A DNA stretch of 54,700 bases from Patescibacteria group bacterium (lineage in GTDB: Bacteria > Patescibacteriota > Patescibacteriia > WFTA01 > S139-112), in contig WFTB01000015.1 of the NCBI GenBank assembly GCA_015485695.1, positions 1-54,700 of the forward strand, given 5' to 3'. The notes under the pieces are model-generated. The model had not been told where the DNA came from. It worked only from the letters and a program-made list of their open reading frames with translations, and ran no database searches. A program made the position numbers and the translations under genes. This document shows positions 1,620 to 24,951 of this stretch, piece by piece (the first letter of the stretch is position 1; the number at the start of each line of letters is the position of its first letter).

Positions 1620-3293
1620 GTGCTTATTATGAAGAACAAGAAGACGCTATTTTTGATTTTATTGTTTGTCGTTTCCGCGATACTCGTCTATGCGTTTGCG
1701 TATGGAAAACGTGGAGATGTAGATTATGCTTTAACAAGCAAAAAAAAATTAAGCGAAGGTAATCTTAGCGGCGCGTTTACTCTAGGGTCGGCCTCAAAGT
1801 CGGTACCGGAAATTTCCGTAACGGGAACGCTTTTGCCGGTTGAGCGCGCGGATGTTTTTGCCGTTGTTTCCGGAACGATAACTTCGTTTAACGCGGTGGC
1901 GGGCAAATTCGTGCGACGTGGCGATGTTATAGCGCGTATTGATTCTCCGTCTTTGCGTTCTTCGTTGTCTGTTGCCAATGCGACGTATGAAAAGGCGCTT
2001 GCGGATTATGAATATCAACGAATCATGAGTGAGACGTCCGGAATCCGTTCGGACGTGGATGTCAAAAGCGCGGAGATAGACAAAGAAAATCAAATAAAAT
2101 CGGCGCAACAACAGCTGAACGAAGCGTATGTTGGAGCGTTTAGCGCGATAAGACAATCTTTTGATGATGCGATCTCCGCTCTTGCAACCATGATTGACGG
2201 TAAATCGCTTGCATACGGAAACGCAAGCATGAGAGACACTTTATCCGGCGTGGAATACGAACAACTCCGCGCAGGGAAAATATTATTGGGAGCGTCAAGC
2301 GATACGGCGCGATGGGAAAGCGAATTCGTGCTAGGACTTAACGGAGGGTTGCGAGAAAAAATTTCCGCGATAAATACGGTCGCTGGAAGCACAAAAGAAA
2401 TAGATAATATACGGTCGGAACTTTCGGAAGCTCTTGAATATGTGTCCGTTGGGCTTGGTTATTCGAGAGAGATAGCGTCATCGTTTGGCGATAAAAATCA
2501 AATAGAGAATGTCGATCAGATGATAACCAGAATAAATTCAGCGATTGCGCGCATTCAAGGCGCGGAACAAAACATAAAAACGGCTAAGATATATCTTGAT
2601 TCCGTTATGTCTCAAAAAGACGTCGCGCTTGAGAAAAACATTGCGATACAGAGTGACACAAAAGAGAGGTACGACGCGCTTTTGGAGTCAACGGCTCGCG
2701 CGGTTGAGTCTGCCAGAGTTTCCGTGTCTCGCGCGAAGTCGCTTTTGGAAGATACCGTTGTTCGAGCCCCGTTTGACGGTGTAATCGAGGACGTGTTCGC
2801 TTCAGTAGGCGATGTTGTTATGCCGGGCGCGCCATTGGTGTCTGTTTCCACTTCCGACAAATGGAAAGTTGAATTTACGGTATCGGACAGGTTCAATGAA
2901 TATATAAAAACAGGGACTCCGGTTAAGCTGTATATAGGGGGCGACTCGGGTTCATTTGAAGCCTCTATAGACAAGATAGTTCCGGCGGTGGATTTTAATT
3001 CAAAGAAAATTCGTTTTGAGACTTATTTGAACAGTTCTCCGGAGTCGGCTCGATCGGGTCTTGTGGTGAAGGGGAACATATCTCCTTCTTATAAAGAAAA
3101 GTCTGAAGAGAGTTCATCTACCGTGTTTTCAATCCCGAACAAATATGTGGGATACGGGTATAACGGAACGTATGTGGTTTCAAAAGACGAAAAAAACATT
3201 CCAATAACCATAATATCTCGCAACAAAAACGAGTCACAGATATCCGGACAGGGTTTGTTTGAGGGACTTGAAATAATCGTTCCGATATTTTGA
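1620..3293 (+). CDS. RND efflux periplasmic-adaptor-like (HlyD/MFP) protein
   Basis: N-terminal TM, biotinyl-lipoyl-like halves (GTITSFNAVAGKFVRRGDVIARID / VRAPFDGVIEDVFASVGDVVMPGAPLVSV), long coiled-coil. Confidence 0.85.
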   Translation: MLIMKNKKTLFLILLFVVSAILVYAFAYGKRGDVDYALTSKKKLSEGNLSGAFTLGSASKSVPEISVTGTLLPVERADVFAVVSGTITSFNAVAGKFVRRGDVIARIDSPSLRSSLSVANATYEKALADYEYQRIMSETSGIRSDVDVKSAEIDKENQIKSAQQQLNEAYVGAFSAIRQSFDDAISALATMIDGKSLAYGNASMRDTLSGVEYEQLRAGKILLGASSDTARWESEFVLGLNGGLREKISAINTVAGSTKEIDNIRSELSEALEYVSVGLGYSREIASSFGDKNQIENVDQMITRINSAIARIQGAEQNIKTAKIYLDSVMSQKDVALEKNIAIQSDTKERYDALLESTARAVESARVSVSRAKSLLEDTVVRAPFDGVIEDVFASVGDVVMPGAPLVSVSTSDKWKVEFTVSDRFNEYIKTGTPVKLYIGGDSGSFEASIDKIVPAVDFNSKKIRFETYLNSSPESARSGLVVKGNISPSYKEKSEESSSTVFSIPNKYVGYGYNGTYVVSKDEKNIPITIISRNKNESQISGQGLFEGLEIIVPIF

Positions 3294-8358: not shown

Positions 8359-8398
8359 GGTAATCGTATTGAATAAGATTTTGACCGAACTCAAGCCC

Positions 8399-8461
8399 GC
8401 TTGCCACCGGCAACCGTCCTCGCTTGTTCGATTCCATTATTGTACTGAGCGGGTAGGGGGA
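8399..8461 (-). repeat. Orphan copy of tRNA-Gly 3' end (13 bp) plus tail element; att-like
   Basis: cgcttgccaccggcaaccgtcctcgcttgttcgattccattattgtactgagcgggtaggggga matches 10813-10875 with two adjacent mismatches; the tRNA body is absent. Confidence 0.85.
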
Positions 8462-9096: not shown

Positions 9097-10572
9097 TTAC
9101 TGGTGCAGAAACCGACGATACAAGAAATTGAGACGGTCCGCTTCTTTTCTGTCGCCTCTGCCAATCGCTTCCTGAAACCTCACTTTAAGATTCTCCTTCA
9201 CTTTCGGCACATAAGAAATAAAATATACGCTTCCGTTCTCCGCGACTTGAGCCCCTCTTCTTACATCTCCACCATACTCATCTCTGACATGCCGCACTTC
9301 TTTAATTTGTTCCATTAAATACTTCCGTTTTTGTTCAAGAGACCAGCCGTCTTCCGGATAATACGCATCGTCTTGAAAATCTTCTACAAACCCATTAAAT
9401 GTTTGGATTAAATCATACATATCTACTATGGTAATCAACTTTGTCTTATCATGAATCATGGCAAAAAATACGGTAATATTTGCTTTTTCTGCCTCCTGTG
9501 TCATCTGTTCCAGATTGCTGATATCAAAATCATTCACCCCTTCATCAGAAAGCACAAGCACGGCAGCAGGAGGTTCTTTGTCGCTGTTCCCTCGCCTGCT
9601 TTGAGTTAATCGGTCTATTGCGCTTTGAGCGACATGAAGCTGCCTTTCCTTACTTCCTTTAAACCTCATGCCGTCGACGAATGAACGCACATCATCCGGA
9701 CTCTGTATTCCCTTTTCTCTCGGATCAATTTCATAACTAAACGACGCCATTGTGCAATCATGAGTATTAAAAAAACCGCTATCATTCATAATCTTTTCAA
9801 TCAACTTATCGCGCAATAAAGCAGAATCATCACTCATTGACCCGCTGCGGTCTATCAAAATCCGCAACACGGGAAAGCGGGATATATATTCAACCAATTC
9901 CTCGTATTGCTTTTCTCGTTGCTGTTTTCTGTCGTTCTCAGAAGGTTGGACAATGTCCAAAGAAACAAATCTGCATTTGCCAAACAATTCCTCCCTAATC
10001 TCTTTGGGTAATTTCTCCGCCTCTTCTTCTCTGTAACGCTCTTTTGTATCCGGGTTTATTAAATCTGTAATCGCGGTAACCCCTTTTCCGTAGCGTGGAT
10101 TAACGGGAATATTGGTAATCACTCCAGCATTAAAAAAATCCTTCAGTGAAGGGTTTTTTTGGATAAACAACTCAACCACCTCATGGTAAATCCTTCTCAC
10201 TTCAGCAACCCTCGCTTGCGCTAATCCTTTATTCCCTTCTTCCCAGGTAATTGTTTGTCGCTCATCTGCAGAGGCCGATACGTTCACCCGCAAATGAGAA
10301 AGGGCGTCTTTATCCATCTTCGCAACCTCTTTCTCTAAAAAATAAAACAGTTCTGTTTTGAGTTTTTCTTCTTTCTCAGGGTTCATTTTTGCTTCATTCG
10401 TTGGAAAAGCGTCTGTCATGTCAAAATGAAACAAAAGTTTCTCTCCACTCTCCTTTTCAACATCTCCCTGTTCTGGACCGCACCCAAGCCCAAAACCAAA
10501 AGCAACAGCGCCAAACCCCAACGTCTTCATAAAATCTCTCCTGCTCCACCCTCTTCCTTCGTGATTATTCAT
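9097..10572 (-). CDS. von Willebrand factor A domain protein with Tat-type lipoprotein signal
   Basis: N-terminus GWSRRDFMKTLGFGAVAFGFGLGCG (twin-Arg + lipobox-like LGCG); MIDAS DRSGSMS. Confidence 0.8.
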   Translation of the reverse strand: MNNHEGRGWSRRDFMKTLGFGAVAFGFGLGCGPEQGDVEKESGEKLLFHFDMTDAFPTNEAKMNPEKEEKLKTELFYFLEKEVAKMDKDALSHLRVNVSASADERQTITWEEGNKGLAQARVAEVRRIYHEVVELFIQKNPSLKDFFNAGVITNIPVNPRYGKGVTAITDLINPDTKERYREEEAEKLPKEIREELFGKCRFVSLDIVQPSENDRKQQREKQYEELVEYISRFPVLRILIDRSGSMSDDSALLRDKLIEKIMNDSGFFNTHDCTMASFSYEIDPREKGIQSPDDVRSFVDGMRFKGSKERQLHVAQSAIDRLTQSRRGNSDKEPPAAVLVLSDEGVNDFDISNLEQMTQEAEKANITVFFAMIHDKTKLITIVDMYDLIQTFNGFVEDFQDDAYYPEDGWSLEQKRKYLMEQIKEVRHVRDEYGGDVRRGAQVAENGSVYFISYVPKVKENLKVRFQEAIGRGDRKEADRLNFLYRRFLHQ

Positions 10573-10650
10573 ACTGCTTGTGTTAAGCTAAACCCGGCAC
10601 TGAAAAAACTCTAAAAAAAATCTCTTCAAAAATTTGGTGGGCAATCACTT

Positions 10651-10861
10651 GCCACCGGCAACCGTCCTCGCCCGTTCGATTCCCTCATTAGTACTGAGCG
10701 GAAAGAAGAAATCACCTGGGCTTGCGGTCGCTTGCCACCGGCAACCGTCCTCGCCCGTTCGATTCCCTCATTAGTACTGAGCGGAAAGAAGAAATCACCT
10801 GGGCTTGCGGTCGCTTGCCACCGGCAACCGTCCTCGCCCGTTCGATTCCATTATTGTACTG
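10651..10861 (-). repeat. tRNA-Gly tail element, tandem copies with 83-bp period
   Basis: gccaccggcaaccgtcctcgcccgttcgattcc begins at 10651, 10734 and 10817 (83 bp apart). Confidence 0.9.
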
Positions 10862-10934
10862 AGCGGGTAGGGGGAATCGAACCCCCATCGCCAGCTTGGA
10901 AGGCTGGAGTAATAAGCCATTATACCATACCCGC
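10862..10934 (-). tRNA. tRNA-Gly(TCC)
   Basis: Cloverleaf GCGGGTA...CCAGC CTTCCAA GCTGG...GGGGGTTCGATTCCCCC TACCCGC, discriminator T; no encoded CCA. Confidence 0.95.
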
Positions 10935-24671: not shown

Positions 24672-24745
24672 GCGCCCGTAGCTCAATTGGATAGAGCGTC
24701 TGGCTTCGGACCAGAAGGTTAGGGGTTCGAGTCCCTTCGGGCGTA
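24672..24745 (+). tRNA. tRNA-Arg(TCG)
   Basis: GCGCCCG acceptor, TCTGG CTTCGGA CCAGA anticodon arm, GGGGTTCGAGTCCC T-arm. Confidence 0.95.
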
Positions 24746-24951
24746 CAAGGCACAGCCTTGCTCTTATTGGACTCGAACGGGCGAGGAGTCTTGTTGGGGA
24801 CAAGACACCGCAAGCCCAGGTCCGGAACGGCGAGTCCCTTCGGGCGTACAAGGCACAGCCTTGCTCTTATTGGACTCGAACGGGCGAGGAGTCTTGTTGG
24901 GGACAAGACACCGCAAGCCCAGGTCCGGAACGGCGAGTCCCTTCGGGTTGT
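24729..24951 (+). repeat. tRNA-Arg tail element, two 103-bp tandem copies plus partial third
   Basis: gagtcccttcgggcgtacaaggcacagccttg... begins at 24729 and 24832, partial at 24935; each carries the 3' end of the tRNA gene. Confidence 0.93.

Follow-up and report, generated by a model that had tools for sequence, protein, structure and literature searches.

The T-loop is a known crossover region of the integrative elements that target tRNA genes, and in integrons it is a folded single strand, attC, that serves as the recombination site, with arms that pair into a core and a terminal stem that varies, while the cassettes line up as arrays of units behind one anchor site. The ends of IS200/IS605 elements and the REP/RAYT systems carry hairpins with guide bases that pair to the target. 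The tyrT distal repeats of Escherichia coli (rtT RNA) form, at one locus, a tandem array behind a tRNA in which each repeat has its own copy of the tRNA 3' end, and we know of no anti-T-arm in rtT RNA. In Islander-type islands, as set out in one published account (PMC4383910), the tRNA gene is split by an insert that restores its 3' end, so that the original fragment comes to lie further downstream.

In this article we discuss a tail that follows a tRNA-Arg gene in a 54,700-nucleotide stretch of DNA from a Patescibacteria group bacterium, the whole of which is called the window here (Table 1). A preliminary description made from the letters alone had stated that GGACTCGAAC in this tail is the exact reverse complement of GTTCGAGTCC in the tRNA, which we confirm to the base, and that two 103-nt copies plus a partial one follow the gene, which is equally correct, the two copies being 100% identical. 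The nested hairpin that it had drawn is present, with stem P2 (GGGC/GCCC) and the long hairpin P3, but the best fold adds an outer stem P1, in which the anti-T-arm GGACTCG pairs with the CGAGTCC that follows it, as well as P4, a small hairpin (CCGGAACGG). The outer stem had been overlooked, and so had the fact that the tRNA 3' end is duplicated as a whole, the orphan copy elsewhere in the window and the spread of the arrangement across isotypes. The best fold of the Arg unit has -30.3 kcal/mol, and 3 of 200 shuffles were equally good; terminator-like hairpins in the Arg units number two, against a shuffled mean of 0.9.

Table 1. Positions of the tRNA genes, tail units and their parts in the window
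Feature	Position	Strand	Basis or remark
tRNA-Arg(tcg), host gene	24672-24746	+	ARAGORN and Rfam
Proximal (putatively restored) 3' end of tRNA-Arg	from about 24729 to tRNA 3' end	+	
T-arm of tRNA-Arg, GTTCGAGTCC	24725-24734	+	sequence
Junction C56/R57 (family-wide) in tRNA-Arg	24728/24729	+	boundary statistics, 36 loci
Unit 1, 103 bp (tRNA 3' end, spacer, anti-T-arm, folded core)	24728-24830	+	exact tandem repeat
Unit 2	24831-24933	+	identical to unit 1
Third copy of tRNA 3' end, truncated, CGAGTCCCTTCGGG	24934-24947	+	
Weak terminator-like hairpin between tRNA-Arg and anti-T-arm	24746-24760, again 24849-24863	+	
Anti-T-arm (guide-like arm), GGACTCGAAC, exact complement of intact T-arm	24769-24778, again 24872-24881	+	
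Folded core P1-P2-P3-P4, copy 1	24769-24837	+	covariance model R1, 96.7 bits (the model was itself built from this core), and covariation
Folded core P1-P4, copy 2	24872-24940	+	covariance model
tRNA-Gly(tcc), second host gene	10861-10934	-	
Gly tail copy 1	10791-10849	-	sequence and covariance model
Gly anti-T-arm, GGAATCGAAC, complement of GTTCGATTCC	10840-10849	-	
Gly tail copy 2	10708-10766	-	covariance model
Gly tail copy 3, truncated	10617-10683	-	covariance model, 34 bits
Orphan tail copy with tRNA-Gly 3' fragment	8377-8455	-	

In this genome (G000) the same arrangement recurs at three further tRNAs, Gly(tcc), Gly(gcc) and Gln(ctg), each time with a 10-nt arm that exactly complements its own T-arm (at Gln(ctg), GGATTCGAAC against GTTCGAATCC), and this recurrence, together with that at tRNAs of related genomes, means that the arrangement behind tRNA-Arg is not due to chance. 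The orphan copy of the window lies 2.1 kb away from the Gly array, and a 491-aa open reading frame with a VWA-like look (9097-10572, minus strand) sits between the two. A further orphan tail of this genome, like the 3' end of tRNA-Ser(cga), is found 2.4 kb downstream of tRNA-Ser(cga), with several open reading frames in between (locus L242, 3487-6095, contig C33). Five contigs of the same genome (C2, C3, C31, C37 and C46) stop 0-7 nt beyond a tRNA 3' end (Gln-ttg, Lys-ttt, Leu-taa, Ser-tga and Pro-cgg), and a contig end abuts the 5' end of none of the listed tRNAs; such breaks suggest that the sequence behind these tRNAs varies or repeats, as it would with repeated or variable insertions.

The tail had been called a sequence of no recognised family, and this holds, in that nothing in the window except tRNA reaches the gathering score of an Rfam family; a lax scan of 18 related loci likewise gave nothing but tRNA above gathering, with no ribozyme and no match to rtT RNA, and a description of such tRNA tails was not found in open-access papers. 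Since the exact core pattern, run across 57 relatives, matched its own genome only, a covariance model was required, and the model search that had been proposed at the outset, once run, turned up tRNA-adjacent copies in related genomes. The first model, built from three sequences of this one genome, matched 17 of 380 genomes of the class (E <= 0.01), including a doubtful match in G049 that has no nearby tRNA, and the second matched 4 of 379 genomes of the phylum and all 4 genomes of one family. Of the roughly 700 related genomes, sampled at one per species, about 20 carry the family according to the covariance models, and this prevalence is underestimated because members go undetected by the models: Trp, Ser, Glu and Ala members in a scan of fetched tRNAs from two genomes, and several more in a DNA search within one genus. 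Among 33 strong matches examined, 28 have a same-strand tRNA no more than 420 nt upstream, most at 11-80 nt, and the host isotypes are Arg, Gln, Gly, His, Glu, Ser, Lys, Leu, Pro, Asp, Val and Trp; additional loci bring Ala and Met, and the family occurs at about 15 isotypes. Most tRNA-linked members score about 30-80 bits, and none of 49 unrelated control loci that had been preselected because they contain the core motif exceeds 25.7 bits with model R2. Exact-pattern searches of genome contigs gave 45 matches from many phyla, none of them beside a tRNA, which were taken as chance and likewise stay within 25.7 bits with R2; viral contigs gave four pattern matches, none near a tRNA, and no match to three further patterns, and phage and plasmid records had no match to the tail pattern. 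The tail is a member of a structured, tRNA-linked family that is absent from Rfam.

Where these units sit in the tRNA gene can be read from a second copy of the tRNA 3' end, present downstream in 36 loci and running from C56/R57 to the tRNA 3' end. The boundaries are sharp: identity between the proximal and distal copies is 0.08-0.14 at T54/T55, 0.81 at C56 and, over the stretch that starts at R57 and closes with the tRNA's final base, about 0.97, a value inflated by the search cut-off of at least 80% identity for duplicates, and is then about 0.4, which is raised by true tandem arrays; the 36 loci include a few duplicated or adjacent tRNA genes (e.g. L148, L170 with Ser(gct), and L228), and these only blunt the left boundary. 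In three loci (L133, L141 and L147) CCA is encoded by the distal copy and not by the proximal one, as would be expected if the distal end were the original and the proximal end had been brought in, and in non-tandem units the sequence after the proximal copy differs from that after the distal copy, with different terminators in L135, L141 and L144. The units are about 100-230 bp long and non-coding, with no integrase or other gene inside. The units thereby leave the classic footprint of an integrative element that enters a tRNA gene at the T-loop and restores its 3' end, as described for the Islander elements. Other rearranged loci were also seen: the 5' half of a tRNA-Pro is joined to a tail core just past the anticodon loop and followed by an intact tRNA-Pro (L134 in G209, L136 in G195), repeated or decayed copies of tRNA-Thr and tRNA-Trp are clustered around a tail-like element (L137 in G122), and behind one tRNA-Arg(tcg) lies a tRNA-Arg remnant whose anticodon arm and T-arm seem to be parted by a hairpin, with more tail units after it (L247, about 2650-3190, in G138).

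Across C56/R57 the arm is complementary to the uninterrupted T-loop TTCGANTCC, and the inserted state leaves GANTCC alone beside the core. That the anti-T-arm is specific to its own tRNA, an idea first raised for the Arg locus, is borne out by exchanging the tRNAs of 31 loci: the seven core arm positions are paired in 196 of 217 cases against 175 expected after exchange (p < 1e-4), and the variable T-loop base at position 59 pairs in 28 of the 31 loci against 10 expected (p < 1e-4). A weaker effect (p = 0.009) is that the spacer, too, tends to complement the acceptor strand, strikingly so in cases such as the Val locus L249. An arm subclass, GGACGAGAAG, keeps the ends and has GA in place of TC, and its P1-like stem is kept only by way of tandem G.A mismatches with CGAGTCC. 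Furthermore, a nearly invariant AA follows P1, so the complementarity to T54/T55 may in part be a structural constraint.

It was this complementarity that led the preliminary description to a switch on tRNA folding or processing, in which the anti-T-arm would pair with the T-arm in a tRNA-tail transcript and block folding or processing. In the form considered here the block would extend to 3' processing, and the distal T-arm copy would relieve it by competing for the anti-T-arm. The specificity for the own tRNA agrees with such a switch, as does an excess of G-T wobbles over A-C mismatches, and capture of the nascent T-arm is possible in silico: a 115-nt transcript that ends just past the anti-T-arm refolds with the T-arm captured, and the full 282-nt fold leaves the tRNA acceptor stem formed because the arm prefers, and pairs with, the distal T-arm copy. 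However, as a general function the switch is unsupported, given the terminators, the full fold, in which the acceptor stem stays intact, and the insertion footprints, namely the duplication from tRNA position 57 onwards, the displaced original CCA ends and the variable occupancy. A terminator-like hairpin separates tRNA and tail at many loci, though not at all of them (a spacer hairpin with a T-rich 3' arm was seen by inspection in at least 11 of 31, and the automatic criterion flagged seven), and with even the window unit having a weak one, co-transcription is probably not conserved and the switch becomes a minor rival; in addition, tails occur on a minority of tRNAs only, and on different tRNAs in each species, the GA arm subclass is not a perfect complement, and a switch does not account for the exactly duplicated tRNA 3' end. 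We therefore regard the switch as unlikely.

The fold itself, which the right end of the unit forms as a single strand, was examined in 39 aligned sequences, in which 92.8% of cells are paired, with the caveat that the alignments were fitted to the covariance model and so favour the structure, and 20 of 23 pairs change on both sides. Because P1 could inherit covariation from the tRNA, it was set aside, and P2-P4 by themselves have 94.6% of cells paired and a covariation of 0.581, against 0.168 when shuffled and at most 0.103 when slid. Covariation gives strong support to P1-P4, also without P1, and from the P2-P4 result it follows that one strand of the tail sequence is maintained. Imperfect pairs in P2-P4 are G-T in 20 cases and A-C in 7, a weak hint, from a model that itself favours G-U, that the tRNA-sense strand is the one that folds, be it as RNA or as DNA, and a conserved GG precedes P4. 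Just ahead of the arm, several loci of genus g3 (L249, L250, L283, L284 and L290) have a second hairpin that is variable in sequence and fixed in place, and at some loci of this genus the terminator stem reaches into the CCA end of the tRNA. Conserved junction nucleotides (the AA and the GG) and a top-strand wobble bias are also what one would look for in a separately functioning structured RNA, or in a ribozyme-like mobile element at the RNA level that would enter tRNA transcripts and then be copied back, its arm serving as an RNA guide; an arm that spans the junction much as an intron guide does, and a duplicate that stops at the tRNA 3' terminus, would fit as well. Yet short spacers leave no room for a promoter and no ribozyme family of Rfam matches, and we give this account a similarly small chance.

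Tails also differ between genomes and are shared between tRNAs. In one genome (G176) identity among four cores, those behind Ser(tga), Arg(tct), Arg(tcg) and Leu(cag), is 87-91%, and each has an arm and an end copy that fit its own tRNA; in another (G002) a near-identical unit is common to Gln(ttg) and Gln(ctg). Within one genus, Ser(tga) has a unit in G002 and none in G371, the arm GCAGGATTCGAAC behind Lys(ctt) is found in G371 and is absent in G002, and decayed remnants of tails persist at Ser(gga) and Ser(cga). Core similarity across tRNAs and variable occupancy speak for gain, loss and spread of units, but in this sample of one genome per species neither an autonomous version nor an excised form turned up, nor did an empty site at the level of strains. 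Of 36 genomes tested, 35 have tyrosine recombinases, whether the element is present or not, so that co-occurrence with it is uninformative, and no member of this recombinase family in the 36 genomes was found to be linked to the tails. A dependence on Y1 transposase was rejected, as this enzyme is absent from seven element-bearing genomes (G000, G028, G061, G176, G257, G371 and G002). A first reading of orphan tails as a sign of the element's own mobility was given up: at one locus (L155, 646-9990, in G061) a 9-kb island, which encodes a large serine recombinase of 606 aa, lies directly against tRNA-Lys(ttt) and parts it from its tail array, and there it is the island that accounts for the displacement. 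One could go further and see in the tails nothing but neutral relics, either shrunken remnants of tRNA-integrated prophages or islands or else local duplications, with similar attachment-site hairpins kept by chance, and tRNA 3' ends being integration hot spots, the island between tRNA-Lys and its tail and the decayed tails would all be in line with this; but the compact, repeated anatomy, the double-sided covariation in all four helices and the matching arms point to a maintained structure and make relics improbable.

The reading that we prefer, with moderate confidence, is that the tails are a family of miniature, gene-less integrative elements that target tRNA T-loops in Patescibacteria-like genomes, non-autonomous and with an attC-like fold. 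The insert would enter between TTC and GANTCC carrying its own tRNA 3' end and push the original 3' end downstream, and a recombinase acting in trans would recognise the single strand in its folded form, much as integrases recognise attC hairpins; the arm may be a guide that matches the target and that, once inserted, pairs with the displaced half-site, and tandem arrays could arise from repeated insertion or unequal crossing-over. Besides the lack of a linked recombinase and of an autonomous version, excised form or empty site in this sample, it counts against this reading that a unit moving to another isotype would carry the wrong tRNA 3' end with it, for which a plain integrase model has no explanation, and that the excess of G-T over A-C would also fit an RNA. 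The fit to a new isotype might come from compensatory change once the unit is in place, from copying in the course of insertion or from gene conversion. A bolder proposal, which we consider possible but rather doubtful, is a new kind of mobile element altogether, a gene-less folded strand of about 100-230 nt that picks its tRNA target by base pairing between a 9-10 nt arm and the uninterrupted T-loop on both sides of the insertion point, and that re-matches this arm at the next tRNA. If the tails are insertions of the preferred kind, they would rank with the smallest site-specific integrative elements and might even be a guide-directed insertion system found in nature, a minimal element that joins the insertion footprint left by tRNA islands, a folded site such as integron cassettes have and a guide-like, target-matched arm, and they would be a source of tRNA-gene turnover and of assembly breaks in a poorly cultivated group of bacteria with very small genomes; if the tail is an RNA instead, then it is a tRNA-linked structured family that Rfam is missing.

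How, then, does this family compare with the systems described before? The likeness to rtT RNA that had been pointed out is a fair one for the anatomy and extends no further, as there is no Rfam match to rtT. Unlike the guide bases of IS200/IS605 and REP/RAYT, the arm of the tail is 9-10 nt long and varies with its target, and seven element-bearing genomes lack the Y1 transposase. With attC the tail has in common an imperfect folded hairpin with pairing arms and a variable terminal stem, and arrays of units at one anchor, a resemblance of architecture only, whereas GTTRRRY/RYYYAAC boxes are absent from the tail junction and the distal copies lack the TT before C56 (identity 0.08-0.14); and unlike in integrons, the anchor is a tRNA, the arm tracks that tRNA and there are no cassette genes. 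With the tRNA-targeted integrative elements the tails share a duplicated tRNA 3' end and a crossover inside the tRNA (36 loci), but where Islander-type islands bear an integrase and are kilobases long, the tail units are gene-less, measure 100-230 bp and combine a conserved hairpin with an arm matched to the target.
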